From Desulfomicrobium macestii (GTDB lineage: Bacteria > Desulfobacterota > Desulfovibrionia > Desulfovibrionales > Desulfomicrobiaceae), in assembly GCF_014873765.1 (NCBI RefSeq), contig NZ_JADBGG010000023.1:1-64000 (forward strand): 64,000 bases of DNA, read 5' to 3'. Position numbers and translations under genes: made by a program. Below are positions 48,199 through 64,000 of the stretch, one piece after another; position 1 is the first letter of the stretch; each line of letters begins with the position of its first letter. Below the pieces are notes generated by a model. That model was not told where the DNA came from, did no database searches, and saw nothing but the letters and a program-made list of their open reading frames with translations.

Positions 48199-49464
48199 TC
48201 AGAAGCTGTAGCGGACAGCGAGGTAGAGGTTGGTGTTGTTTTCAAATTGACCGAAAAAAGTGGTTCGGCTTTCACCCAGAAAGATGTTGCCCCCGCCTTC
48301 CAGGGTTAGATGATCCGTGCATGTGTATTGGATGGTTGGCCGCAGATAGGCGTCCTGGTCGCTGGGGCAGCAGTACGCGGACAGGGCGAGTTCGAGGTTC
48401 TGGTTCATGAGCAGTTGGACAAGTTGCAGGGTCAGCACATGGCGCAGTTCGTCGCGCGGTGCACCGTCGTGATGATTTTCCCGGTATCCTGCGTAATCCA
48501 GCATCTGCTCGACGTAGTATTGCAGGGTGGCTGTGCATTCTGGAGCGATTTCCCGGCTGTAGCCCACCAAGTAGCGCAGTTCCGAATTGGGGATATTCGG
48601 ATCGTGGCCGTACGTGTCGTCCAGGGATTGGTACCAGGCGAATTCGGTGTTGCCGATGCCCTGACCTACCTGCCCGCGCAGGCTCGCACCCAGGCTGCGC
48701 AAGCGGGAAAAGGTCGCCTGGCCGTCCCGTGTCCGGGCGTTTGGGGTTTTCCAGAAACCATCATATCCGTAGGCCGCCAGTTCATAGCCTGTAAACGTGC
48801 GGGACAGGCGGGCCGCGAACTCGTCATCCTTGAACCAGGCGTTTGGCGTGACTTCGTTTACCACTGCGTCCTGGCCCGCGAGGCGATCACCGTCCCAGTA
48901 TGAGACGTATTCGCCGGTGATAAACCGGTCCGGATCAAAACGCGGCGTGTAGACGAGGTCGATGTCGCAGACGTTCGTGAACAGACCTACCTTGATCGCG
49001 TCCGACGGGGCCTTGAGGTATTCGGCGGCGCGGCCGATGAAGAACGACCGCCAGTCCTTGGGGAAGAGGTCGTTCAGGAAGACGAGATCGCCGGTGCCCC
49101 AGGTCAGGATCTGACGGCCGATCTTCACGTCGAGCATGTCCAGGGGGCGGGCGAAGAACCACAGTTCCCTGGTGTCGTATTCGCCTTGTTCGGACACACC
49201 ATCGGCCCAGGCATCCCCCTTGTACTTGAGGTCGAACCAGTCCGTGGTCTTCAATATTTCCATCTGCAGACGGGTTTCCATGACCGAGGCGTCGGATTCC
49301 TCGGGGTCGTCCTGCAGGCGCGCGCCGTAGCGCAGTTCCGTGTAGCCGTGCACTTCCGTGTCGAGCCGTTCCAGCAGGGAGCGTTCCCCCGCGTGCAGGT
49401 TGGCTGCGTTGGCCCAGATCAGCATGACCCAGGCCAGCGCGGCGAGAGCGGCCTTGTCTTTCAT
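48199..49464 (-). CDS. DUF1302-like outer-membrane beta-barrel protein, module 2
   Basis: A 421-residue barrel protein with signal sequence (ALAALAWVMLIWANAANLHA), DVKIGRQILTWGTGDLVFLNDLFP and a C-terminal Phe (NLYLAVRYSF). It shares the GRQ-x-x-x-WG element and overall length with the product of 38951-40204. It probably forms the outer-membrane part of module 2 with the LolA-like protein and RND transporter. The start overlaps the LolA-like stop by 4 nt. Confidence 0.82.
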   Translation of the reverse strand: MKDKAALAALAWVMLIWANAANLHAGERSLLERLDTEVHGYTELRYGARLQDDPEESDASVMETRLQMEILKTTDWFDLKYKGDAWADGVSEQGEYDTRELWFFARPLDMLDVKIGRQILTWGTGDLVFLNDLFPKDWRSFFIGRAAEYLKAPSDAIKVGLFTNVCDIDLVYTPRFDPDRFITGEYVSYWDGDRLAGQDAVVNEVTPNAWFKDDEFAARLSRTFTGYELAAYGYDGFWKTPNARTRDGQATFSRLRSLGASLRGQVGQGIGNTEFAWYQSLDDTYGHDPNIPNSELRYLVGYSREIAPECTATLQYYVEQMLDYAGYRENHHDGAPRDELRHVLTLQLVQLLMNQNLELALSAYCCPSDQDAYLRPTIQYTCTDHLTLEGGGNIFLGESRTTFFGQFENNTNLYLAVRYSF

Positions 49465-50294
49465 CGCGTGAGTTCTCGTGGAGGTCTGCGCAGATAGCGC
49501 TCGGTGAACAGGTCCGCCTGAAGACCCTGATTGTAGCCAATTCGAGAAAAAGACATGACCGTGGCGCTGCCGGAGTCCAGATTTCTGGCCACGGACTCGG
49601 CCACAGTGGGATAGACGACGGACTGGTCGTTTTCCTTCGCCTGGACGTTTTCGACCCTGGTCACTTCTATGGTTCTGTAAGCCCGGTTTCCTTCCCGGAA
49701 GAATTGCAAGCGCATCGGAAGGAATGTCTTTTTGTCCACATGCACGAAATAGTGGCTGAACTCCACGGATTCCGGAGTCTTGGGGACGTTATCGAGGATA
49801 TATTCCGTATCGGTTTCGCCGATCAGTTCGTGGTTGTCTTCGGTGATGGCGCGTCCGGAGATGTCTTCGTACAGAAAGTCCGAACCCACGAAACTGGTCC
49901 GCTTGTCACTGGCTGCGATGCGTTTCACCAGATCAAGGCTTGGCATGTACAACCAGCGGTCGTCATCCTGTCCGGGTGCGGTGTGTTTGTGGACCATGAA
50001 AACCATTTTGCGCACATCGGCGGGTTCGAGGAAATAGACGTAGTACTGCTGCTCGGCGTCATTGTTTTCGTCCCGGCGCAGCATGGCCATTTCCCGCTTG
50101 CGAACACGGCCTTGGCTGTCCGTGATGGTCAGCTCAATCCGTCCTGTGGCGTCTTGACCCTGATACAGGGACGCGTGATTGGCCTTGCGGACGATGTTGT
50201 CCACGTCCAGGTCCGCGGCCCCGGCGGGCAGGACCGGTGCTGCCAGTACGAGGGCCGTCAGCAGTATGCGTTGAAGCAGTGACTGTGCGTGCAT
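49461..50294 (-). CDS. LolA-like outer-membrane lipoprotein-sorting family protein, module 2
   Basis: A 277-residue periplasmic protein: signal peptide (ILLTALVLAAPVLPAGA), GRIELTITDSQGRVRKREMAML, DDRWLYMPSLDLVKRIAA, VGSDFLYEDISGRA. It is paralogous to the protein at 40205-40999 (the WLYMP and GSDF/GTDF segments align directly). Start 50294 is preferred to 50315 because CGGAGAAACAA precedes it. Confidence 0.86.
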   Translation of the reverse strand: MHAQSLLQRILLTALVLAAPVLPAGAADLDVDNIVRKANHASLYQGQDATGRIELTITDSQGRVRKREMAMLRRDENNDAEQQYYVYFLEPADVRKMVFMVHKHTAPGQDDDRWLYMPSLDLVKRIAASDKRTSFVGSDFLYEDISGRAITEDNHELIGETDTEYILDNVPKTPESVEFSHYFVHVDKKTFLPMRLQFFREGNRAYRTIEVTRVENVQAKENDQSVVYPTVAESVARNLDSGSATVMSFSRIGYNQGLQADLFTERYLRRPPRELTR

Positions 50295-50387
50295 TTGTTT
50301 CTCCGATTGTTTCATTGTTTCTCGATAGGTGCCGCAATCAGGGTGTGAGATGGTAAGAATTTGTTTGCCGTCCCTTCCCTCTGCCTC

Positions 50388-50409
50388 CCCCTTCCTTGGC
50401 AGGAAGGGG
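50388..50409. terminator. Hairpin between RND gene and LolA-like gene
   Basis: CCCCTTCC and GGAAGGGG pair around a 6-nt loop with no U tract on the minus strand. It may stabilise or partly terminate the transcript after the RND gene rather than end it fully. Confidence 0.35.
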
Positions 50410-50442
50410 AATCACAATGCTGCCGTCTCGATCTGCGTGGCC

Positions 50443-53073
50443 TTATCGTGCCCGCGTGGTGCCGAATAACCAGCGTTGGCACACGGTCAGCACGGCTGGC
50501 AGGCCGACAAGCGTCATGACGCCGGAAAAGGCCAGAATGCCGAAGAGCAGTACGGCCGTGGTCTTGTAAGGCACGAGTTGGGCGACCATGAGGGGCAGAA
50601 AGCCCAGGGCTACGATCAGCACGTTGCGGGTGATGGCCAGGGCCGGTTCGCCGAAGACATGGGGCAAGGCCGCTCCCCAAGACCCGGTTTCTCGCTGCAG
50701 TTGGCGGGCCCGCTCCAGGAAATGGATGGCGAAATCCACTGCGATGCCCAGGCTGATGGCACTCAGGACGGCTACAGGCATGTCGTAGTCCTTGCCCACA
50801 AGTCCGGTCACGCCGTAGATGGCCCCGATTGTCAGGGTCAGGGGGAGCATGCACAGGGAGCCCCAGAGTACGGAGCGGAACAGGATGACCATCATAACAA
50901 AGACGATGACGAACGATCCGCCAAAGGAGGCGAGCATTTCCCAGAACATTGTCTCTTGGAAGTGGAGATTGACGTAGTGCAGTCCGGCCCAGCGAACCAG
51001 CAGGTCCGCCGGCGGCTGGTGGGTGGCGATGTAGGCGTTTGCCGCGCGCACGGTCTGTTCGGTCAGGGTGCTGTCGCCTCGCGGAAACTGGAGCATGATG
51101 TTGGCCTGCATGAAATCAGGGGTGACGAAATGCCACAGGTCGTGCGGCCGATGACTTTGCTGGTACTGCATGCAGCATTCGGCCACGCCCTGGATGGTTT
51201 CGGGGACGCGGTGGTTCTGGGGGGTGCCGTCGATCAGTTCCTGATGGACCTTGCGCACTATATCGGCCAGGGACGTGCTTTTGCCGATCAGTCCGGCCCC
51301 ATGCAGATGGGCCTGAAGGCCAGCCATGTATTCTAGTACGTCTGGACGTTTGAAAGGTTTGAGTCGTTCTTTTTCCAGTTCGAGGGCGGTTTTCAGTTCG
51401 TCAAGTACGGCGGATTTTGCTTCCGGGATTTTGGTCCGGCGGTTTTCGATCTGGCGAACGGCCAGATCCAGAAATCCTGCCATGGTTTCGGACTGGTTTG
51501 CCCATGCAGGCAGGCTGTCCGCGATGTCGCGGGCGATTCGAGGTGCGGCCGGATCGTTTTCAAATCCTGCGGCCACCTCCAGAAGGTGCGCCCTGATCCG
51601 GGCGACGTCATGCTCCGTCGGACTGCCCGCTTCCTTGCCCTCAAGCACCATATAGGCGGTATAGGTTCCGGCGAAATGACTGTTCAGGGCTGTGTCCGCC
51701 TGGCGGATGGGGTGACTTGTGCTGAACCGCTTGGCGTAGTTGTCGTTGACGTTGATCTGGGTCATGCCCCAGATGGCGACGCCGATCAGGGCGACCATCG
51801 CGGCCAGGACCAGCTTGGCCTGGTTGTGTGCGAATCGGCCGGTGGCGTGCAGAATGCGCGTCAACCGGGACACTTTCTCTCGCGCCCGGGCCGCCTGGCC
51901 AAAATTGGCCAACACGCGTTCCGGGATGAACATGACATAGGCGGGAATGAGCAGTACCGTGGCTGCCCAGGCGACCATGACTCCCAGAGCGACAAAAACC
52001 CCGAAAACTCTGGCCGGAGGAATGGAGGTGGTCACGAAAGACAGAAAACCGGCGGCCGTGGTCAGGGATGTGTAGAGGATAGGGGTGAACAGGCGACCCA
52101 TCACCTCCCGAATGGTCTGTCCGCGCCCTTTGGCCGGGGTGTAGGTTTCGAAAAAGTCGGACAGGACGTGTACTGAGTCGCAAATGGCGATGGGCATGAG
52201 GAAAATAGGCAGCATGGAGCTTAAGATATGTACCGGATGGCCGAAGGCGATCATCAACCCCAGGGCCGAGACCACGGCCACAGTGGCTACGATCATGGGC
52301 AGGAAGATCAATGCCGGCTTGCGGAAAAAGAAATAAAGGAGTCCGAAAATGACCGCCATGGTCAGTGGGGCGGCCACGGTCATCTGCGTGAACATCTCCA
52401 CGCCGATGGCGCATTCGGCCACCGGCAATCCGGCGATGTGGTACCGCTCTTCTCCGCCAAGTTCCGCTATCTTGCCTTGCAGTGCTTCATAAATCTTGTA
52501 GCTGAGCAGCTTGTCCGTCAACGGCAGATACAGGCACAGGGCCTTCCCGTCCTCGGAGATCATCTGTCCTTTGAGCAGCGGATTGGACAGGGCCTTGTCC
52601 CGGATGGCCAGGGCCTGCTCGCGCGTGGTCGGAGGGCGCGGCATGAGCCACTCAAAACGGATGGAACCCGGTCCGTTCTGGGCCATGTGTTCTGCCACGG
52701 ACGGCGCGATCATGTCCGCCTCGATCACGCCGGAATACAGGCCGGGTTTGTCTGGATTCTCCCAGCGCAGGGACGTGGCGAATTTGGTCAATTCGAACAC
52801 GCGACTCAGTGTCTCCGGGCTGAAAACTCCGTCCGGATGCCCTTCGTTGACGACCCCAATTACGATAGTTTCGCTTAAGGCGAATCGCGTCTTGCTTTCG
52901 TTGTGAAAGGTTCGCACCGGCGCGCTCTGTTCGAGCATGTTTTCCGGGTCGGTATCCATGGTGATCCAGGGAATAAATGCGCCCGTTGACAAAGTGAACA
53001 AGGTGATGGCCACGGCGATCCACCGATACCGGCGGATCGAAAATTCAATGATGCGGGATTTGAGTGTGAACAT
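50443..53073 (-). CDS. RND/MMPL-family transporter, module 2
   Basis: An 876-residue transporter with helix 1 near 15-35 (WIAVAITLFTLSTGAFIPW), two large periplasmic loops and two membrane bundles. The second bundle contains SLGIAVDFAIHFLERARQL, the proton-relay region. Compared with module 1 the second loop is longer and more charged. Start 53073 follows GAGGCTCCC. It lies directly behind the marR gene and its operator, so substrate-inducible expression is likely. Confidence 0.9.
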   Translation of the reverse strand: MFTLKSRIIEFSIRRYRWIAVAITLFTLSTGAFIPWITMDTDPENMLEQSAPVRTFHNESKTRFALSETIVIGVVNEGHPDGVFSPETLSRVFELTKFATSLRWENPDKPGLYSGVIEADMIAPSVAEHMAQNGPGSIRFEWLMPRPPTTREQALAIRDKALSNPLLKGQMISEDGKALCLYLPLTDKLLSYKIYEALQGKIAELGGEERYHIAGLPVAECAIGVEMFTQMTVAAPLTMAVIFGLLYFFFRKPALIFLPMIVATVAVVSALGLMIAFGHPVHILSSMLPIFLMPIAICDSVHVLSDFFETYTPAKGRGQTIREVMGRLFTPILYTSLTTAAGFLSFVTTSIPPARVFGVFVALGVMVAWAATVLLIPAYVMFIPERVLANFGQAARAREKVSRLTRILHATGRFAHNQAKLVLAAMVALIGVAIWGMTQINVNDNYAKRFSTSHPIRQADTALNSHFAGTYTAYMVLEGKEAGSPTEHDVARIRAHLLEVAAGFENDPAAPRIARDIADSLPAWANQSETMAGFLDLAVRQIENRRTKIPEAKSAVLDELKTALELEKERLKPFKRPDVLEYMAGLQAHLHGAGLIGKSTSLADIVRKVHQELIDGTPQNHRVPETIQGVAECCMQYQQSHRPHDLWHFVTPDFMQANIMLQFPRGDSTLTEQTVRAANAYIATHQPPADLLVRWAGLHYVNLHFQETMFWEMLASFGGSFVIVFVMMVILFRSVLWGSLCMLPLTLTIGAIYGVTGLVGKDYDMPVAVLSAISLGIAVDFAIHFLERARQLQRETGSWGAALPHVFGEPALAITRNVLIVALGFLPLMVAQLVPYKTTAVLLFGILAFSGVMTLVGLPAVLTVCQRWLFGTTRAR

Positions 53074-53089
53074 GGGAGCCTCGTTAAAA

Positions 53090-53104
53090 GTTAAGCTGCT
53101 TAAC
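53090..53104. promoter_or_regulatory. Probable MarR operator
   Basis: GTTAAGC-T-GCTTAAC is a perfect 7-1-7 palindrome 17 bp upstream of the RND start codon. A matching half-site GCTTAAC lies at 53610-53616 upstream of the marR start, next to a TTGACA-like -35 (minus strand). Both positions fit repression by the MarR protein. Confidence 0.65.
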
Positions 53105-53127
53105 AATAAGTGCAAAAAAAAATGGAT

Positions 53128-53598
53128 TCAGTCAGATCCTTTCAAACGCTTGTCAATGACATCGTCAATGGCTTCGAGCAGGACGGACAGGGTTGCTACC
53201 TGAGATAGGCTGAACGCACCCAGTCGAGATTTGAGACGGGCCAGATCCTGCCCGTGAAAGCGCTCGTGCGCGGCGAATCCTCTCCAGCCCAGTTCGGTAA
53301 GGGTCAGGATGAATTCCTTGTTGCTGTGCGGAGCCGGACTTTTGTCCACGAAACCTTTCTGCACGAGTCTTGAAACCATCTGCGAGGCCGCGCTCTTGGT
53401 CACTCCGAACCGCTTGGCCAGAGCCGTGACGTTGATTTCCGGCGTGTCGCCGACAGCTTCGATGATATGCGCCTCACGTGTGCTGATTTCCCCGTGCCCT
53501 TCAACCGGAATGGGCAGATTTTCGGCGTCGGCGTACTTGCGGGCCACGCGCACGAACTGGCGGATGGTGGTGAGGATGAATTCGTTCGTGTCGTTCAT
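53128..53598 (-). CDS. MarR-family transcription regulator
   Basis: A 156-residue winged-helix protein: dimerisation helices at both ends and a central DNA-binding part STREAHIIEAVGDTPEINVTAL, AKRFGVTKSAASQMVSRLVQKGFV and the wing SPAPHSNKEFILTLTELG. MarR proteins commonly repress an adjacent efflux pump until a hydrophobic ligand binds. Start 53598 (MNDTNEF) is preferred over the upstream ATG, which would lie over the putative operator. Confidence 0.9.
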   Translation of the reverse strand: MNDTNEFILTTIRQFVRVARKYADAENLPIPVEGHGEISTREAHIIEAVGDTPEINVTALAKRFGVTKSAASQMVSRLVQKGFVDKSPAPHSNKEFILTLTELGWRGFAAHERFHGQDLARLKSRLGAFSLSQVATLSVLLEAIDDVIDKRLKGSD

Positions 53599-53747
53599 GA
53601 AATTTTTGTAAACATGCTTAACTATTTTTGTCAAGCAGCATGCGCCAAAAAAAAATGATTTGTAGCTGAAGAGTCGTGGTGTGAATGGAAACAGTGCAGA
53701 ATGTTAATCGGACTGGGTGTGGACTGCTCGCTAGGTTCGGCGGTGCG

Positions 53748-53791: not shown

Positions 53792-54673
53792 CTATTTGAC
53801 GGTGAAGGTCAGGCTGGCGCCGTGGTAGACTTGATCGGCCTTGCCTGCGAGATCTTTCATGGGGCCGTCGGCAGTGACGTCATCCTTGTGGTTGACGTTG
53901 ATCATCCACTGGCCGGAGCTTTGCACCCGGAACTGAGCCTTGCCGTTCATGAGATAGGAGAACAGCGTGAATCCATCGCTTTGGCCAAAGCTCTGGGAAT
54001 GGGCCGTGACGAACTCCATGCTTTTGGCCGAGACCGTCAGGGGTTGGCCGTAAAAGAGCACATCCACTTCGACCAGATCGCCGACATGCAGGTTGCTCAA
54101 ATCCGTACGGGGGATGATTTCCAGACCGTGGCCCAAGGGAGCCGGGTTGGTCCATGCACCCACGGTCAGATACGATTTGGCGAAGGCTTGGTATTTGACG
54201 GACATGAGCACCTTGTCGATGTCCTTGATGGCGTCACGCGGCTTCATCTGCAAGCGTTCCTTGCCGTTTTTGTCGATGTACTGGGTGAAGAAGGACGGGG
54301 TGGACACTGCGGACACCTGATAAACGCCCTGGACAGCTTCCTTCTTCAAGGCGATTTTCTGCAGGGCCATGTCAGCGGCGGTTACGTCGAAGCTGTTCGT
54401 GCTGTGCACGGTTTCCGCTGGTTTGGCTTCGGGCATGCGCAGGGCGGTCTTGCCCATGGCCGGATCAATCAGGTCAAACGATTCCAGGGCAATATGGCCG
54501 TCCTTGGAGCTTAAAATGTCATCCATGGGCAGGGCGTGTCCCCAGCCCAGGGAAACCATGGCGTGGTGTGCTCCGTGGGCGTGTGATTCAAAGACGTTGA
54601 CCCAGATGGAGTGGGCCTGGGCCGAAGTGGCCAGCAGGGCCGTGAAGCAAAGGGCGAGTAGTATTTTCTTCAT
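53792..54673 (-). CDS. DUF4198-family periplasmic protein
   Basis: A 293-residue exported protein: signal peptide (ILLALCFTALLATSAQA), then the conserved mature N-terminus AHSIWVNVFESHAHG, with a His exposed right after the cleavage site, and beta-sandwich repeats (LHVGDLVEVDVLFYGQPL, GQWMINVNHKDDV, YHGASLTFTVK). DUF4198 proteins accompany TonB receptors and nickel or cobalt transporters and are thought to bind metal. It is the second gene after the FyuA-like receptor. Confidence 0.88.
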   Translation of the reverse strand: MKKILLALCFTALLATSAQAHSIWVNVFESHAHGAHHAMVSLGWGHALPMDDILSSKDGHIALESFDLIDPAMGKTALRMPEAKPAETVHSTNSFDVTAADMALQKIALKKEAVQGVYQVSAVSTPSFFTQYIDKNGKERLQMKPRDAIKDIDKVLMSVKYQAFAKSYLTVGAWTNPAPLGHGLEIIPRTDLSNLHVGDLVEVDVLFYGQPLTVSAKSMEFVTAHSQSFGQSDGFTLFSYLMNGKAQFRVQSSGQWMINVNHKDDVTADGPMKDLAGKADQVYHGASLTFTVK

Positions 54674-54801: not shown

Positions 54802-56970
54802 TTAGAAGTAATATGTCGTCCCGATACCGAAAGAGCGTGGGTCGCCGTAGGAGATCAGGCCGACCATGGAGTTGGACATGAACATGCTGACATACTCCTC
54901 GTCGGTCAGGTTACGGCCGTAGACGTAGAAGTCCCAGTCATCGAGCCGGTAACCGATCTTGGCGTCGACCAGGGTATAGCCGTCCTCTTTGGCGAAACCC
55001 TTGTTGGCGTCGTCGTAGAAATACTGCTTGCCGAAATTCCTGACATCGGCGCGGCCGTAGAAGCCGCTCGGATGGGTGTAGGCCACGCCGGCACGCAGGG
55101 AATGGGTGGGAGTCATTTCGATGTTCTTGCCGTCATAGTTGCCGCTGCCGTAATCGTAGTCGTCATATTCGGCCTCGATAAGGCCCAGGGCGGTGCTCAG
55201 TTCCAGTCCGTCCAGAGGCCGGTAGGTCGCTTCAAGTTCAACACCCTGAGAGTGGGCCTTCTTGGCGTTGTCCGTGACGTACATGGTACCGATGGCCTTG
55301 TAGACATGAACGTCTTCGATATCCATGTAGAAGATGGAGGCTGCTACGGAAGCGCGTTCGAATGAGCCCTTTATGCCCCATTCGTAGTTGGAGGAGATTT
55401 GGGGTTCAAAGCTGTTTTCCTCAACGCCGCCAGCCTGGGCAAAATAGTTGAACCCGCCGGGCATATAGCCTTTGGAGTAGGAAACAAAGGTGCTCCAATC
55501 GTCGGCAAACTGCCAGGAGAAGGCCGCCTTGGGCAGGAAGGCGTACCACGCCTTGTCGGCTTTGAAGTCGAACATGGATGGTCCGGACACGCCGACTGGC
55601 AGGTAGTACACGGACATGTCGATTTCCTTTTCGATGCGCTGGTAGCGCCCGCCCAGAGTCAACTCGAACTGTTCGGCAAAGGGGATCATGACCTGCCCGA
55701 AGGCGGCCAGCGTAGTGGCGTCCGTCTCGGATTCGGCATTCATTTCGAAATTGCCGAAGCCCGTCGGAAACTGCATGCCGTATGGGCCCTGGTCGCGGGT
55801 CTCGGTGTCGAAGTAAACGCCGGCCACCCAGCGGAACCCTTCGTCATTGGTGCTGGACAGGCGCAGTTCCTGGCTCCAGTTCTCTACCTCCGTGTCGTCG
55901 AACTGGGTCAGTCCGGTGAAGAGCGGATCGTTGCCGAAGTCCGCGTCATATGTGCCGTCATATTCCAGAAGTTTATGCGTGGTCACCGAATCCAGGTTCA
56001 CGGTACCGAAATCATAGCTCAAGGCCAGGCTCTGGGCATTGTTTTCCGTGATTTGTCTGGTTCGTGCGTCCATGTCGACGTGTTCGGCATCGTCTCTGGA
56101 GAAATCGCTCAGCCTCGGCCCTCCCAGCAGTCCGTAACCGTCGATCCCGTATGTTCTTGTGTATTCGTTGGTCAGTGAGATCCTGGCCGTGAATTTATCC
56201 GTGGGCATCATGGTCAGGTTGAGGTTGACGCGGCGATCGTCTTCCTTGTTGAACTCGTCGTCCCGTTCGGGGTTGTCATTTTCTATCCAGCCGTCGTCCT
56301 GGCTGTACTGACCGTTCAAGCCGAGATAGAGTTTGTCGTCGATCAGGGCTCCATTGGTATTGAAAACGCCACTCATGTGGTTCTCACTGCCGTATTCGGT
56401 ACCGATCTTGCCATGCCAATCGTTGTCCGGCTTCTTGGTCACGATGTTGATGACCGCGCCGATGGCGTCCTTGCCGTACAGGGTGCCCTGGGGGCCGCGC
56501 AGAACCTCGACTCGCTCCGCATTGGCCAGGGAAGCGTCAAATCCTTCGCGTCCGCTGTGCGCCACGCCGTCGATGTAGATGACCACGGGGTTGTTGTTGG
56601 TGAACATGGACGGGTTCAGGCCACGAAAATTGACGGCATTGCCGTGGGCGCTTGAACTGGCCGTCATGTTGGGAATCTCGCGGATGAGATCAGGCACGCT
56701 TTTGATGCCCTTTTCTTCCAGCATGACCTCGTCGATGACGGTGATGCTCTGGGGCACCTTGACCAGATCCTCTTCCATCTTGTTGGCCGTGACCGTGATT
56801 TTTTCTATGGTCACGGGTTCTTTGGCCGCGCTGGAGTTGGTGTCTCCGGCCCAGGCTCCAGAGCAGGTCAGTACCGCAGCCAGGACCAGGGGTAGCAGGC
56901 GTGTGCCCAAGCCGGGCCAGCCGCTTGGCGTCTGGGTCTGCTGGGGATTTATAAACGGGAACTCGAACAT
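54802..56970 (-). CDS. TonB-dependent receptor, FyuA-like (second)
   Basis: A 722-residue receptor: signal sequence (LLPLVLAAVLTCSGAWA), TonB box EKITVTANKMEE, plug with VPQSITVIDEVML, NFRGLNPSMFTNNNPVVIYIDG, VLRGPQGTLYGKDAIGAVIN, a barrel with FVSYSKGYMPGGFNYF and DNAKKAHSQGVELEATYR, and terminal F (GIGTTYYF). It has the same build as the receptor at 43170. Start 56970 follows GGAGGATCACC. It likely imports a metal chelate with the downstream DUF4198 protein and the upstream ABC systems. Confidence 0.92.
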   Translation of the reverse strand: MFEFPFINPQQTQTPSGWPGLGTRLLPLVLAAVLTCSGAWAGDTNSSAAKEPVTIEKITVTANKMEEDLVKVPQSITVIDEVMLEEKGIKSVPDLIREIPNMTASSSAHGNAVNFRGLNPSMFTNNNPVVIYIDGVAHSGREGFDASLANAERVEVLRGPQGTLYGKDAIGAVINIVTKKPDNDWHGKIGTEYGSENHMSGVFNTNGALIDDKLYLGLNGQYSQDDGWIENDNPERDDEFNKEDDRRVNLNLTMMPTDKFTARISLTNEYTRTYGIDGYGLLGGPRLSDFSRDDAEHVDMDARTRQITENNAQSLALSYDFGTVNLDSVTTHKLLEYDGTYDADFGNDPLFTGLTQFDDTEVENWSQELRLSSTNDEGFRWVAGVYFDTETRDQGPYGMQFPTGFGNFEMNAESETDATTLAAFGQVMIPFAEQFELTLGGRYQRIEKEIDMSVYYLPVGVSGPSMFDFKADKAWYAFLPKAAFSWQFADDWSTFVSYSKGYMPGGFNYFAQAGGVEENSFEPQISSNYEWGIKGSFERASVAASIFYMDIEDVHVYKAIGTMYVTDNAKKAHSQGVELEATYRPLDGLELSTALGLIEAEYDDYDYGSGNYDGKNIEMTPTHSLRAGVAYTHPSGFYGRADVRNFGKQYFYDDANKGFAKEDGYTLVDAKIGYRLDDWDFYVYGRNLTDEEYVSMFMSNSMVGLISYGDPRSFGIGTTYYF

Positions 56971-57192: not shown

Positions 57193-60100
57193 TCATCGGG
57201 TACGACCGGACGCCATGTTGTCCTTGGGCTCTCGTTCGTAGGCCGGCCAATCGTCGAGCATGAGGGTGGAAGCGGCCGGGGATGTCGGTACGTCTGTCCA
57301 GACAAGACGGCCGTTCTTCGTGCTGATGCCGCGCGGAACCGGTTTGGCATCCTGAGTCTGCCAACCGCCGCCTTGCCACGTCCAGCGTTCACCTCCGGTC
57401 CCGTCGTCCTGGACATGAAGGTCCACGGCGCTCGGCGGCCCGAGATAGCGCTTGGCGTCGTCTTCTCCAAACATTCCGGCCAGAGATCCGGCAATGTCGC
57501 CGCTTCGGCGCACGGACTCAGCCAACGCCTCGATGTCTTGCGGGGACAGCCTGGATGCCCATTGCATGGCCGCCAGGGAGGCATAGTCGGCACCCCATTT
57601 ATCGTGCACGGCCAGTGCCAGCGGTCCGACCGGGTTTTCGGCTCCGGCCAGGGCTTTGGTGGTGCTCTGGGCCCCGCGTGACAGGAGGGCGAGCAGGGCT
57701 TCGGTGCCATCCGTTTCCGCAACGCACAGAAGACCGATGGCACCGGCCAGCCCATCGCCGATCCAGAGGCCGCCCTCACCTTCGCGCAGATCCGAGGCAT
57801 CGCCGATCGCGCGTCTGGCCAGGGCGGCGGCGATGTCGGCGCGCCGGGCCAGGCGGCCGGTTCCCGTGTCGGCGACATCCCAGTGGGGCTCTTCGGCCAG
57901 CAGGAGCATGGTTCCGGCTACAGCAGCGTCGCCGGAACCTGTAGGCAAGCCTCGCGGCCATTGGGCCACGGTGTCTATGATCGGTGCTCGGCCCAGGCGG
58001 CGGGCGACGCAGACACTCATGGCCGAAAGGTCCTGGGCGATGGCCAGTGCGTCCTGGCCGCGGGCATTGTCGTGAACCAGGGTCACTCCATCCACCTGGG
58101 TTCGTCGGGCATTTGGGAATGTCTGTGCGGCAAAATCGAGCAGACCATCAAGCTGGCCGTGGCGGATGTCGGCTTCGCGTCCTTTGATTTCGACCCGCCA
58201 GATCCACTGCCCGGTCGGCGCGGCAGCGGCATGCGCCAGGGAGGCTCCATAGAACGGCAGTGTGAATTCTTTCGGCAGGCCCAGGCGGGAACGGTCCGCC
58301 GCCGTACGGATGACCCGCTTTGCATCGAACCCCAGGCGGGGCATGACGTCTGCGGCCCGCAGCCAGAACGAATCGCCGACCAGCCAGGACGGCTGCGCCA
58401 GATCGCTGTGGCCGCCCGTGTTCCATCCCGAGGCGGGCAGACGCCAGGAGAGATCAATCGTGCATCCTGTACTCCGGCCATTTGGCAGGGGAAGGGCAAG
58501 ATGGTCGTCGTCCACCGTGGCTGTGACGTTTAGCCCATCGACCTGCGCACCAAGCAGTTCAAAGCCGGTCGGCAGCAGGGCGTGAATTTCCTCTCCGGCG
58601 GCGCTTACGCCTTCCAGCCGCCACTGACCATGCAGTTCCCCCGCCTCCGGCACAATGGTGAGGACGACCTCTCCGCCCTGCACCGAGAAATTCCCCTGGC
58701 GCGACAGCCATCGGGACTCCCAGGTTGCGTCCTTGGCCAGGCGCTGCTCCTCGGTTTCGTAGCCTCCCTCGGTTACGTAGCGTTGGTGCAGCCAGATCGA
58801 GCAGCCAGCCAAGGCGATCATGCCGACAACCACGGCCATTCCGGGCCGTCCAAGCAGACCTGCACGGAATTGACGCATCCTGGGCCGCCATCCTTCGTCG
58901 GTTCCACGTCGGTTGACGGCAGCCGCCAGGGCAATGATCGTGATGATGAGCGCGAGCTTGAAACTGTTGATCGCCAGAATTTTTTCGATCCAGACCGAGA
59001 AACCGGTCAGGCCCGAGAGGGCAATGTCGACGCCGCGACCTATCTGCCAGGGCGGGTAATTGACCAGCCCTACCTCGAAATTGACCACCATGATGAAGGC
59101 GGCCAGGATCGCGGCCGCATGGGCGGTTCCCGGATGGCGGATCACGGCGTGCAGGAGCAGGGTGATGGCGGCCATTTCCAGGATGGCGGGCAGTAGCACC
59201 ATCATCTGATGGAGTACCGGCAGCATGAGCGAGATGCCCTGTGTGGTGAGCAGGCCCGTGATGATCGCGCCAACGGCCGGAATGAGTGAACAGATGACAG
59301 CGATGGCCAGGGAGGCGACGGCGCGTCCGGTCAGTCGCACCGAATCCGGTGCCGGGGCGGCATCGAACATTTCGGACAGTCCTGGCTGTTCGTCGCGGCG
59401 GGCTGCCATGCCGACCATGGCCGCGACCATGAAGACGACGATCAGGTAGAAGGTGCGAAGCAGAACCGGAGACACATATTCGGTCCGCGCGACCATGGGG
59501 CCATAGGCGTGGTGGACGCCGTGGGCGAATCCTGCCGCGACCGCCAGCAGGACAAGAAATCCCATGGCGATCCACAGACCGCGGCTGGCGATGATCTGTC
59601 GGATCTGCCAGCGGGATTCGGCGATCACGGCCCGACACCAAGAGGTCGTAACAGTGGGGCAGGGCTGGGCGTCGGGGATGGCAATGGGGAGGCGGGTACG
59701 ATTGTTCCGGCGCGGGGATGGATGTTGCACGCCTCGCCCAAGTATCAGCGATTCCCTTGTTGTCCGGATGATGGAGATTGCCAGGAACGCCAGAGGTACT
59801 GCTCCCCAGATCAGTCGGTTCCATAGCAGAGCCGGCGTCAGTGCCAGCAAGGCGGTGCTTTTCTGGTGCGGTGTCCATTGGTCCACCACTTGATGCTCGG
59901 CCTCTGCAAAGCCCGAAGGATCAAGGATCGTCACCAGAAAAGGGTCGGCATGCCCTTCTTTGAAGACGATCATGGAGACCATCCAGAAGGCCATGAGCAG
60001 GGCGGCCACTGCAAAGGGCCCGCCGACGCCTCGGGTGCGCAGTGCGGCCACGAAGTACAGGGCACCAGCTCCGGCCGCCAGCGGCAAGGTGAAAACGAGC

Positions 60101-60564
60101 GCGGCCCAGCCGAAGGCCATCCACGGCGCGTTGGCCACGGAGCCGGGCGGCACCGCGCCGATGGCTTCGAGCAGTGGGGCGGCCAGAAAGCCCAGAATCT
60201 GCGAGGTGCCGAGCAGGAGCGCTACTCCGAGGGCGCCTGTGTAGCGTGCGGCCAGCAGGCTGCGCAGAGAGATGGGCGCGGCGAGGACGACTTCATGCAG
60301 TTGCACGTTGCGATCGCGCACGATGGGCTGGGCAAAGATCCAGGCCCAGGCGAAGAACAGGAAGAAGGCGTCGCCCGAGGTCATCAGATAGACCAGTCCC
60401 GGCGCATTGCGCGGGATATCCATCGCGCCCATTTTTTGCAGATTCTCGGCGCTGGTCATGACAATTAGAATGTAGCCGCTCAGCACGAGGTAGACGAGAG
60501 GCAGCACGCCGCCTCTCAGTCCGGCCCGGAATTCGTTCCAGGCCTCACGTAAAAAGAAGTTCAT
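57193..60564 (-). CDS. ABC-2 permease fused to an M1-peptidase-like domain lacking zinc ligands
   Basis: An 1123-residue protein. The first ~550 residues hold two sets of about six membrane helices (ABC-2 type). Residues ~600-1050 resemble the M1 aminopeptidase domain found in 'ABC permease/M1 peptidase' fusions: a beta domain (QGGEVVLTIVPEAGELHGQWRL) and a helical domain. At the place of the HExxH helix the sequence reads IAAALARRAIGD (residues 911-922), and the downstream Glu ligand is IGDGLA. All zinc ligands appear lost, so it is probably a binding or structural domain. The ATPase is encoded next door. Confidence 0.82.
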   Translation of the reverse strand: MNFFLREAWNEFRAGLRGGVLPLVYLVLSGYILIVMTSAENLQKMGAMDIPRNAPGLVYLMTSGDAFFLFFAWAWIFAQPIVRDRNVQLHEVVLAAPISLRSLLAARYTGALGVALLLGTSQILGFLAAPLLEAIGAVPPGSVANAPWMAFGWAALVFTLPLAAGAGALYFVAALRTRGVGGPFAVAALLMAFWMVSMIVFKEGHADPFLVTILDPSGFAEAEHQVVDQWTPHQKSTALLALTPALLWNRLIWGAVPLAFLAISIIRTTRESLILGRGVQHPSPRRNNRTRLPIAIPDAQPCPTVTTSWCRAVIAESRWQIRQIIASRGLWIAMGFLVLLAVAAGFAHGVHHAYGPMVARTEYVSPVLLRTFYLIVVFMVAAMVGMAARRDEQPGLSEMFDAAPAPDSVRLTGRAVASLAIAVICSLIPAVGAIITGLLTTQGISLMLPVLHQMMVLLPAILEMAAITLLLHAVIRHPGTAHAAAILAAFIMVVNFEVGLVNYPPWQIGRGVDIALSGLTGFSVWIEKILAINSFKLALIITIIALAAAVNRRGTDEGWRPRMRQFRAGLLGRPGMAVVVGMIALAGCSIWLHQRYVTEGGYETEEQRLAKDATWESRWLSRQGNFSVQGGEVVLTIVPEAGELHGQWRLEGVSAAGEEIHALLPTGFELLGAQVDGLNVTATVDDDHLALPLPNGRSTGCTIDLSWRLPASGWNTGGHSDLAQPSWLVGDSFWLRAADVMPRLGFDAKRVIRTAADRSRLGLPKEFTLPFYGASLAHAAAAPTGQWIWRVEIKGREADIRHGQLDGLLDFAAQTFPNARRTQVDGVTLVHDNARGQDALAIAQDLSAMSVCVARRLGRAPIIDTVAQWPRGLPTGSGDAAVAGTMLLLAEEPHWDVADTGTGRLARRADIAAALARRAIGDASDLREGEGGLWIGDGLAGAIGLLCVAETDGTEALLALLSRGAQSTTKALAGAENPVGPLALAVHDKWGADYASLAAMQWASRLSPQDIEALAESVRRSGDIAGSLAGMFGEDDAKRYLGPPSAVDLHVQDDGTGGERWTWQGGGWQTQDAKPVPRGISTKNGRLVWTDVPTSPAASTLMLDDWPAYEREPKDNMASGRTR

Positions 60565-61452
60565 CTAAGCCTCCTCGTCGGCCACGCCAGCGTCGGCCAG
60601 GGCCACATGGTAGGCGTCTTCCAAGGTTGCCCGGTGGGGCTCGAAATCCGGACCGGGGCGCTGGTCTTTGAGAACCACGGCCAGGGTTCCGGTGGGAGCG
60701 GCGGTCAGGCGCACCGCGGGTGGAAGGATTTGGCCGCGCGGAACCACGCGCGACCAGAGTTGACCCTGCAACCGGTCGGTAAGTTCGGCCGACGCGCCCT
60801 CGGCGACGATGGTGCCTTTGGCCATTATGGCCAGGCGGCCGCACAGGTTTTCGACGTCCTCGACGATGTGCGTGGAGAGCAGGACGACCGCTTCCGCCGC
60901 GACGTCGGCCAGAACCCGGTGAAACCGGTTGCGTTCGGCCGGGTCGAGTCCTGCCGTCGGTTCGTCAACGATGAGCAGACGCGGAGAGCCGATCAGGGCC
61001 ATGGCAATGCCGAAGCGCCGCAACATGCCGCCTGAATAGGTCGATACCTCGCGGTGGGCCGCGCCGCTGAGGTTGACGCGTTCGAACAGGCTTTCCACTT
61101 CAAACAGGCGTTGCCGTTTATCGGTCCGGCCCTTGAGCCAGGCGAAACGTTCGAGGAGTTTTCGTCCGATGACACCGGGATAGGCGCCGATCTGCTGGGG
61201 CAGATAGCCCAGGCGCTGTCGCAGGTGGCCGGGGTCGGCCAGGACATCGACGCCGTCAAGTCCGATCTGTCCGGTATCGGGAGACTGCAGGGTGGCCAGG
61301 GTGCGCATGAGTGAGCTCTTGCCAGCCCCGTTGGGCCCGAGCAGGCCGTACAGTCCGGGTTCGACATCCAGGTTGATGCCGGCCAGGGCCTTGACCCCGC
61401 CCGCGTAGGTTTTGGTCAGGCCCCGAATGGTCAGGCCGTGGGTTGTGGACAT
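60565..61452 (-). CDS. ABC transporter ATPase (partner of the ABC-2 fusion)
   Basis: A 295-residue ATPase with Walker A GPNGAGKSSL, YLPQQIGAYP, signature YSGGMLRRFG, Walker B RLLIVDEPTAGLDP and a long C-terminal region as in ABC-2 drug-type ATPases. Start 61452 follows GAGGAGACC and overlaps the preceding gene by 22 nt. Its stop abuts the start of the permease. Confidence 0.93.
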   Translation of the reverse strand: MSTTHGLTIRGLTKTYAGGVKALAGINLDVEPGLYGLLGPNGAGKSSLMRTLATLQSPDTGQIGLDGVDVLADPGHLRQRLGYLPQQIGAYPGVIGRKLLERFAWLKGRTDKRQRLFEVESLFERVNLSGAAHREVSTYSGGMLRRFGIAMALIGSPRLLIVDEPTAGLDPAERNRFHRVLADVAAEAVVLLSTHIVEDVENLCGRLAIMAKGTIVAEGASAELTDRLQGQLWSRVVPRGQILPPAVRLTAAPTGTLAVVLKDQRPGPDFEPHRATLEDAYHVALADAGVADEEA

Positions 61453-63269
61453 GCGGTCTCCTCGCGATTGATGGTTTGTGGCAATGCACTGTGCAGATGC
61501 CAGTCCTTGGCCAGGCCCTGGGCGTTCCACATGGCTCGGTAACGGCCGTCGGCTTTCAGCAATTCTCGGTGTTTACCCTGTTCGACCACGCTTCCTGCAT
61601 CCAGGACCAGAATGGTGTCCGCGCCGACAATGGTCGAGAGGCGGTGGGCGATGACGATGACGGTCCTGTCCTGGACCAGGACGTCGATGGCCCGCTGCAC
61701 CGCGACCTCGCTTTCGGTGTCCAGCGCCGCCGTGGGTTCGTCCAGGATGACGATGGGCGCGTTCTTGAGGATGGCTCGGGCGATGCTGATGCGCTGCCGC
61801 TCGCCTCCGGACAGGCAGCCGCCGATGTCGCCGACTCGGGTCTCGTAGCCCTCGGGCAAGCGGGAGATGAATTCGTGGCAGTGGGCGGCCCTGGCCGCGT
61901 CCTCGACTTCGGCGTCGGTGGCGTCGGCGCGGCCCATGCGGATGTTGTTCAGAATGGTGTCGTCGAAGAGGTAGACATCCTGAAAGACCACGGACACGTG
62001 GCGCATGATGGTCTCGGGTTCCATGTCGCGAAGATCCGTGCCGCCAATGCGCACGGTTCCGTTCTGCGGGTCGGCGTAGCGCATGATGAGGCGCGTGATC
62101 GTGGTCTTGCCCGATCCGGACGGGCCGACCAGGGCCGTGAGCGAGCGTTGGGGCAGGGTGAAACTGATGTCGTCCAGAACGGGGTGGCAAGTGTCGGCGT
62201 AGCAGAACCTCACGTTTTCAAAGTGGATGTCAAAGGTTTCGGGCGTCCTGGCCGGAGTCGGCACGGGCAGGGGCGGCACGGCCAGGAGTTGCTCAACCTG
62301 TTCGAAACCGGCTTCCATGTAGTCGAAGGCGTCGGCCAGATTGAAGGTTATGGCCAGGGGTTCGGCGAAACGGGCCACGACCACGAGAAGGGCGGTCAGG
62401 GCGGCGACGTCCAGGCTTCCGGTCAGGATGAACCACACGCCCAGGATCATGGCCAGGATGAGGCCGATTTGAACCACGGACGAGGCCAGAAGACTGCTCT
62501 TCACGTCACGCAGCTGGGCCTTTTCCTGAACCGAGCGCAGATGCTCCAGGGACTCCCGCAGACGCGTGGACCTGGCTCCGGTCTGGCCCGTGGCTCGCAG
62601 GACGGGTAGACCTTGGGCATATTCAATTAGTTCGGCGGAGGTGCGGGCATGGGCCTCGGCCAGAATTCGCATTTTTTGCCCGGCGTTGCCGCGACGACGA
62701 CGATATACCGGCGTGGCCAGGGGTACGAGCACGAGCATGGCCAGTGCCATGCGCCAGTCCACGAAGGCCGTTGCGATCAGGGCCACGGCCGGGGTGATGA
62801 TGGAGGTGATGAATGTCGAGGAGATCATCCCCATGGGCGTGATGACCTCGTCGACATTGCCGGCCAGGACGGCCGAAAGTTCGCCCGTGCGTTTGCGATA
62901 CAGCTCTTCAAGGGGCATGCGCCGCAACTGCTTGCCGAGGCTCACGCGCAGGTCGTGGGTCACGTCGGCCAGGGCGCTGGAATAGTCGAACTCTCGCGCC
63001 TTCCAGCGTAGCACCCCGTCGGCGGCGGTACACAGGCTCAGAAAGGCCAGCCACCAGGCCGCTTGGGACAGGTTGGCGGGTGTGGCCAACATGGCTGCCA
63101 GTAGAGGGTAGAAGGCGGCAAAGGCCAGCCCTTGAACCACGGCCGAGAGTACGGAAAAGAGCATGCTCCGGCGCAGGCACGGAGCCTGTTTTCCGGCTGC
63201 GAGCTGCATGCGCCGCCAGGTTTCGGCCAGAGAGGGAACGGGACGGAGAGTGTCGGTAGTTGTATTCAT
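61431..63269 (-). CDS. ABC exporter-fold transporter, YbtQ/IrtB-like
   Basis: A 612-residue half-transporter: six membrane helices (about 30-320) and an ATPase domain with GPSGSGKTTITRLI, Q loop VSVVFQDVYLFDDT, signature LSGGERQRISIARAI and IVILDEPTAALDTE. With the upstream gene it forms a pair of fused TM-ATPase halves, as in YbtP-YbtQ and IrtA-IrtB, which despite the exporter fold import metal-siderophore complexes. The ATG at 63269 follows AGGAGCAGCCC. Confidence 0.85.
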   Translation of the reverse strand: MNTTTDTLRPVPSLAETWRRMQLAAGKQAPCLRRSMLFSVLSAVVQGLAFAAFYPLLAAMLATPANLSQAAWWLAFLSLCTAADGVLRWKAREFDYSSALADVTHDLRVSLGKQLRRMPLEELYRKRTGELSAVLAGNVDEVITPMGMISSTFITSIITPAVALIATAFVDWRMALAMLVLVPLATPVYRRRRGNAGQKMRILAEAHARTSAELIEYAQGLPVLRATGQTGARSTRLRESLEHLRSVQEKAQLRDVKSSLLASSVVQIGLILAMILGVWFILTGSLDVAALTALLVVVARFAEPLAITFNLADAFDYMEAGFEQVEQLLAVPPLPVPTPARTPETFDIHFENVRFCYADTCHPVLDDISFTLPQRSLTALVGPSGSGKTTITRLIMRYADPQNGTVRIGGTDLRDMEPETIMRHVSVVFQDVYLFDDTILNNIRMGRADATDAEVEDAARAAHCHEFISRLPEGYETRVGDIGGCLSGGERQRISIARAILKNAPIVILDEPTAALDTESEVAVQRAIDVLVQDRTVIVIAHRLSTIVGADTILVLDAGSVVEQGKHRELLKADGRYRAMWNAQGLAKDWHLHSALPQTINREETACPQPTA

Positions 63270-63282
63270 GGGCTGCTCCTGG

Positions 63283-64000
63283 TCAGGCTCGGTTTGTGTC
63301 GTTGCGACCCAGAGTCCAGCCCTGGGCTTGTTCGTAGCTCCGCCACAGCCCGGCATACACGCCGTTCGCGGTGACCAAGTCATCGTGACGCCCCTGTTCG
63401 ACCATTTGGCCCCGGTCCAGAACCACGATCTGGTCGGCGTCGCGGATGGTTGAAAGGCGGTGGGCGATGATGATGACCGTGCGGCCGCGCATGAGATTGG
63501 CCAGGGCCGTGATGATGGCGGCCTCGTTTTCCGGGTCGGCAAAAGCCGTGGCTTCGTCCAGGACCACCACCGGGCAGTTCTGCAGAATGGCCCGGGCAAT
63601 GGTGATGCGCTGGCGCTGCCCCCCGGACAGCCGCACCCCCCGATCTCCGGCCAGGGTATGGTAACCTTGGGGCAGGGCCGCGATGAAGTCATGAGCCTGG
63701 GCCGCCCGCGTCGCGTTTTCGACCTCAGTGTCCGTGGCCTCGGGTCGGCCCATGCGGATATTGGCGGCGATGGTGTCGTTGAAGAGGAAGGTGTCCTGGA
63801 AGACAAAGGACACGTGGCGCATCAAATCCTCGGGCCGGATGTCGCGTACGTCGGCGTCGCCGATCCGCACCGAGCCGTCGGCCACGTCCCAGAAACGCGG
63901 AATGAGTCGGGCTACCGTGGTCTTGCCCGCGCCGCTCGGTCCGACCAGAGCCGTGATGGATCCTGCGGGGACGTGAAAGCTGACACCATCCAGGGCATTG
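63283..64000 (-). CDS. ABC exporter-fold transporter, YbtP/IrtA-like (partial, continues beyond window)
   Basis: The last ~239 residues of a half-transporter are present, all of the ATPase domain: GPSGAGKTTVARLI, VSFVFQDTFLFNDT, RLSGGQRQRITIARAI, VVVLDEATAFADPENE. The membrane part and start lie beyond 64000. In the Walker B-proximal loop it has ATAFADPE rather than PTxALD, as in YbtP/IrtA-type partners. It ends 13 bp before the next half-transporter. Confidence 0.85.
   Translation of the reverse strand, partial: NALDGVSFHVPAGSITALVGPSGAGKTTVARLIPRFWDVADGSVRIGDADVRDIRPEDLMRHVSFVFQDTFLFNDTIAANIRMGRPEATDTEVENATRAAQAHDFIAALPQGYHTLAGDRGVRLSGGQRQRITIARAILQNCPVVVLDEATAFADPENEAAIITALANLMRGRTVIIIAHRLSTIRDADQIVVLDRGQMVEQGRHDDLVTANGVYAGLWRSYEQAQGWTLGRNDTNRA

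Follow-up and report, generated by a model that had tools for sequence, protein, structure and literature searches.

Organization of the operon

The stretch of DNA analyzed here (the window) comprises 64,000 nucleotides at the start of contig NZ_JADBGG010000023.1 of Desulfomicrobium macestii and harbors near its end an operon on the minus strand, on which all window features given with coordinates below are located. The genes are arranged in the order AraC regulator, YbtP-like protein, YbtQ-like protein, ATPase, ABC-2/pseudo-M1 fusion, FyuA-like TonB receptor and DUF4198 protein. The YbtP-like subunit (63283..64000, running past the window end; contig 63283-65148) has chain A of the YbtPQ structure 6p6i as its best solved relative (E 4.7e-182), and the YbtQ-like subunit (61431..63269), an exporter-fold siderophore importer subunit, has chain B (E 1.1e-164). 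The ABC ATPase (60565..61452) was identified by homology and by its Walker A (GPNGAGKS), signature (YSGGM) and Walker B (LLIVDE) motifs. Its stop codon is directly followed by the ATG of the fusion gene, whose ribosome site lies within the end of the ATPase gene.

The fusion gene (57193..60564) encodes a protein of 1123 amino acids. The original prediction had placed here an ABC-2 permease with an M1-like domain devoid of HExxH; the open reading frame was found at these coordinates, and in the alignment to intact fusions the motif is replaced by AALAR.

The fusion is followed by a TonB-dependent siderophore receptor (54802..56970; TIGR01783, 226.2 bits at a cut-off of 223.5). Its best solved relative is the pesticin receptor FyuA (4epa, E 2.7e-40), with the pyochelin receptor 1xkw as a further match. 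The last gene encodes a periplasmic DUF4198 protein (53792..54673; PF10670, E 4.7e-35), which is recurrent in these operons, with relatives in the loci L105 and L092 and a fragment in L093. In Alteromonas, iron limitation induces DUF4198 genes adjoining receptors (PMC7190382). With a YbtP/YbtQ-like pair, a FyuA/FptA-like TonB receptor and an AraC regulator, the operon contains the components of a putative yersiniabactin/pyochelin-type uptake locus, and the siderophore context of the fusion is well supported. Secretion of an own NRPS-derived siderophore was considered as well and rejected for this genome, since no NRPS condensation domain was found in it, which makes such a secretion unlikely there.

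Upstream of the operon, on the contig beyond the window (L096:4071-9111), feoB forms an iron-uptake neighborhood with a further DUF4198 gene and a further AraC gene. On the other side, genes for a MarR regulator, an MMPL-type exporter and a LolA-like protein adjoin the operon on the same strand (49461-53634).

Relation of the fusion protein to M1 peptidases

In the membrane part of the fusion (58789..60564), about 12 hydrophobic segments are arranged as two halves, as judged from hydropathy, the positive-inside rule and the alignment to intact fusions. A positively charged loop precedes the last segment (residues 574-592), and this would place the C-terminal ~530 residues on the periplasmic side. 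Using Pfam, a weak match to ABC2_membrane_3 is the sole hit of the protein; PF01433 gave no match at E 1 and the NCBIfam profiles gave none either. The M1 origin of the domain thus lies below Pfam detection. PF01433 also has no match across the window genome (G000), unlike the genomes of the two related loci L001 and L002, which do contain PepN-like M1 proteins.

Real ABC-2/M1 fusions were found by a search of plasmid records, for which a 45-residue motif peptide served as probe. The matched records are mostly annotated as M1 family aminopeptidase, and the full-length fusions among them are adjoined by an ATPase gene; the ABC-2/M1 fusion family is already annotated in public records (PLSDB/RefSeq). 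Comparing the window family (window, L001 and L002) with five of these fusions by hhalign resulted in a probability of 99.8% (E 5e-29) over 907 columns. The C-terminal half alone reached 86% (E 5e-6), while none of 40 column-shuffled controls exceeded 2.3%, and 96% (E 3.7e-9) after addition of three intermediate sequences. Furthermore, tblastn links the window fusion to several ABC-2/M1 fusions (E 1e-13 to 1e-23). A homologous permease and a homologous C-terminal domain are present in one chain, which assigns the window protein to this family. The same holds for the partner gene: a relative of the window ATPase adjoins every full-length fusion examined, and the identity to the ATPases of the other loci, intact and pseudo, is 43-80%.

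A mixed fusion profile searched against the PDB found M1 enzymes with ERAP2 on top (E 4e-14), and in this alignment the profile segment elArqw falls on HELAHQW of ERAP2. Since this profile includes three intact fusions, it backs the family and the register and not the window protein by itself. For the window protein, MAFFT and hhalign (intermediates added) agree on an alignment without gaps in which AALAR falls on HExxH and the third-ligand helix is matched by WIGDGLA, and the distance from the first-histidine position to the third ligand is 24 residues, identical to the intact fusion L059. With three sequences only, the register at the motif came out shifted and gapped in the hhalign comparison of the C-terminal half, and it became ungapped once the intermediates were included. 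This ungapped register confirms the earlier mapping of IAAALARRAIGD to the HELAHxWFGD-like helix and of IGDGLA to the third ligand.

The original prediction had proposed a superposition on M1 enzymes, and for the N-terminal β domain (residues 596-790; 58195..58779) this was successful. It is the best-modelled part of an overall poor AlphaFold model, its strands having a pLDDT of about 52-84, and the top 50 PDB chains retrieved by Foldseek are all M1 metallopeptidases (E 5.6e-7 to 4.9e-5), with matches spanning about 85-110 residues; the model thus displays the N-terminal β domain of M1 enzymes. The C-terminal half was modelled with a mean pLDDT of 36.6 (single sequence) or 40.1 (three-row alignment), so that for the degenerate catalytic-like domain (residues 800-1010; 57535..58167) the superposition did not carry over. 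Here, a thermolysin-like fold is a tentative prediction from the profile alignments.

In searches for close relatives of the window fusion, each covering up to 395 genomes, G048 alone was retrieved, and a scan of viral contigs gave no match. Among 297 genomes of the phylum, PF01433 found soluble M1 enzymes, and none of the 18 long ones inspected is a fusion.

Loss of the active site

In the common register, the histidine, glutamate, histidine, glutamate and tyrosine of the intact fusions correspond to A913, A914, R917, D937 and D993 of the window protein. The stretch AALAR (residues 913-917) lies at 57814..57828, D937 at the position of the third zinc ligand at 57754..57756 and D993 at the position of the catalytic tyrosine at 57586..57588. 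The window protein therefore possesses neither the HExxH-x18-E zinc site nor the catalytic tyrosine of M1 enzymes. A true HExxH elsewhere in the protein, which would have contradicted the original prediction, was ruled out: H[EDQ]xxH is absent from all 1123 residues, and the sole HxxxH (HGVHH at 348) belongs to the permease part.

The close homologues, whose motif state was to be checked as well, have also lost HExxH. At the four zinc and catalytic positions L001 and L002 carry A, A, R, A and the G048 fragment A, A, R, E, and this common loss excludes a sequencing error as well as a single recent mutation. More distant relatives carry E, Q, R, E (the genome G339), R, E, R, E (Zymomonas) and D, A, Q, E (Pseudoalteromonas NC201). 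In total, both zinc histidines and the catalytic tyrosine are replaced in all seven receptor-linked fusions examined, in four different ways. In the other fusions both histidines are kept (8/8 examined) and so is the tyrosine (7/7 of those aligned). Loss of the active site in the M1-derived domain is well supported by these alignments. The assumption of a normally retained M1 site is correct for those plasmid-borne relatives that lie outside siderophore loci; among the siderophore-linked ones seen, loss is the rule.

In the C-terminal tree every pseudo form lies on one side of a branch (97/97). The permease tree, which has low support, disagrees and needs two changes of the motif state.

One could argue that the domain is a decaying remnant of a peptidase without any present role. 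The weak sequence similarity to the intact fusions and the less conserved C-terminal tail (51-62% identity) would fit to this. Against it, dN/dS is about 0.2-0.5 across the whole domain and 0.19-0.32 in the degenerate motif helices, the reading frame has stayed open across four related genomes, and 14 Zymomonas plasmid records carry a homologue. A pseudogene was rejected on the dN/dS values; the pseudo-M1 domain is under selective constraint and not decaying, which leaves decay as a highly improbable explanation.

The GAMEN-type glutamate of M1 enzymes touches the N-terminus of the substrate. This exopeptidase-type glutamate is kept in all seven pseudo fusions (E891 in the window; 57892..57894), and its retention while the catalytic residues are gone fits to binding without cleavage. 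Pseudoenzymes often turn into scaffolds, and the domain might instead be a structural or signaling part which does not bind siderophores and links the transporter, for example, to the receptor, to the DUF4198 protein or to a different periplasmic partner. The drift of the third-ligand position (E, D or A) among close relatives, which leaves this portion of the pocket unconserved, would agree with this. A pure scaffold would not require the kept glutamate, though, and we consider such a role improbable.

Linkage to siderophore receptors

The window receptor, used as tblastn query, has a match in all seven pseudo loci, each at E 1e-19 or better; the eight intact-fusion loci have none. If the loci were independent, this distribution would arise by chance in 1 of 6435 cases, a value to be read with care since the loci represent few and non-independent lineages (four pseudo versus about six intact) and the flanks compared differ in length. 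That the inactivated site goes along with receptor linkage is thus a strong but not a final conclusion. FyuA is the best solved relative of the receptors of the window, NC201 and G339, the Zymomonas receptor has no solved relative at E 1e-10, and a receptor adjoining an intact fusion matched no solved receptor.

The YbtPQ-like genes adjoin the fusion in the window, L001, L002 and Zymomonas. The latter three contain receptor, YbtPQ-like pair, ATPase and fusion in a differing gene order. In L001 and L002 a leucine-carboxyl-methyltransferase-like gene (L001:6197-7012 and L002:402-1220) and an RND efflux set are located near the module, for which siderophore modification or export are possible roles. 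In Zymomonas the pseudo-M1 fusion is found on the 14 plasmid records already mentioned (L094), mostly at 95% identity or more; these copies are annotated merely as ABC transporter permease or hypothetical protein.

For Pseudoalteromonas NC201, the module lies inside a biosynthetic cluster that also encodes NRPS proteins, a salicylate-synthase-like protein and a thioester reductase domain, together with FecBCDE-like genes and a YbtPQ-like pair. G339 contains two sister operons on separate contigs (L092, L105), AraC-YbtP-YbtQ-receptor-DUF4198 and AraC-ATPase-fusion-receptor-DUF4198. This indicates that YbtPQ and the ATPase plus fusion occupy the same place.

Proposed function and direction of transport

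The fusion would represent the permease of a two-component ABC transporter, whose partner would be the ATPase encoded at 60565-61452. In the proposed mechanism, the FyuA-like receptor would deliver the metal-siderophore to the periplasm, where the permease-tethered dead M1 domain would hold this peptide-like compound uncut and present it to the ABC-2 channel. The pseudo-M1 domain would thereby serve as a tethered ligand-binding or gating part, and the transporter would act beside the YbtPQ-like pair, most likely also importing. We give roughly even chances to this reading, in which ATPase and fusion form a second inner-membrane siderophore transporter, likely an importer, with the dead M1 domain holding the ligand. 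The lost active site, the operon of a peptide-like metallophore, the lack of decay and the kept E891 are in line with the original idea of a pseudo-peptidase binding a metallophore; the binding of a siderophore itself, like the identity of the ligand and the direction of transport, we infer.

With respect to direction, the swap of YbtPQ for ATPase plus fusion in G339 favors import. Counting against import, a YbtPQ-type importer is already present and a second one is possibly redundant. ATPase and permease could alternatively return the apo-siderophore outward after import by YbtPQ and removal of the iron, with the dead M1 domain receiving or guiding it, and in siderophore producers they could also secrete it. 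ABC-2-type permeases are better known as exporters, and a YbtPQ-type importer is present in every module-bearing genome that could be checked; both favor an outward recycling, and NC201 even has FecBCDE-like and YbtPQ-like transporters besides the module. The G339 module, on the contrary, has its own receptor operon and stands at the YbtPQ place of the sister operon, suggesting a parallel importer, and the lack of an NRPS condensation domain in the window genome also speaks against the outward route. Recycling, and likewise secretion in producers, thus appears somewhat doubtful.

The fold does not decide on the direction. ABCA proteins and ABC-2 permeases share the type V fold. Among the ABCA proteins, ABCA4 is known as an importer (PMC7932691), and YbtPQ imports despite its exporter fold (PMC10967856).

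Beyond the window, it is conceivable, although to be put forward tentatively, that an ABC-2 permease with a tethered pseudo-peptidase as binding domain constitutes a distinct siderophore importer, for which fused peptidases have been recruited and inactivated to bind thiazoline-type siderophores. If true, peptidases would have been turned into binding domains inside a transporter. The transporters swapped between the sister operons of G339 and the plasmid-borne module of the laboratory organism Zymomonas mobilis make the module directly testable.

Comparison with known systems

According to the current view, siderophores pass the inner membrane via FecCD-type importers with a free binding protein, pairs of the YbtPQ/IrtAB type or single permeases, for example FptX. 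An ATPase and an ABC-2/pseudo-M1 fusion conserved as a module of FyuA/YbtPQ-type loci would extend this list by a further inner-membrane transporter. A literature search, with subscription papers mostly outside its scope and hence weak evidence for novelty, found no description of such fusions, either alone or in connection with siderophores.

The closest known proteins are the annotated ABC-2/M1 aminopeptidase fusions, for example from Granulicella (WP_013572995.1) and Hymenobacter (WP_052345947.1), which have the same architecture and a co-encoded ATPase and are alignable over most of their length. In contrast to these, the window protein lacks the zinc ligands, the catalytic glutamate and the tyrosine, and it is part of a siderophore operon whereas the intact fusions seen here are not. 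The window operon contains close relatives of YbtP, YbtQ and FyuA (6p6i, 4epa), yet to our knowledge no ATPase with an ABC-2/pseudo-M1 partner belongs to the yersiniabactin system in its usual description, and the permease fold of YbtPQ is unrelated to the ABC-2 fold of the fusion.

With M1 metallopeptidases such as the two-domain M1 enzyme of Deinococcus (6ifg), ERAP2 and LTA4H, the window protein shares the fold of the N-terminal β domain, but it is devoid of HExxH and the catalytic tyrosine and is fused to a permease. An M1-derived domain without peptidase activity is known from TAF2, which is a subunit of a eukaryotic transcription factor and not a transporter. ABC importers with a permease-fused binding protein exist, and the window fusion would resemble these if the pseudo-M1 domain binds the substrate, with the difference that its domain does not have the periplasmic-binding-protein fold and that its permease is of the ABC-2 type.
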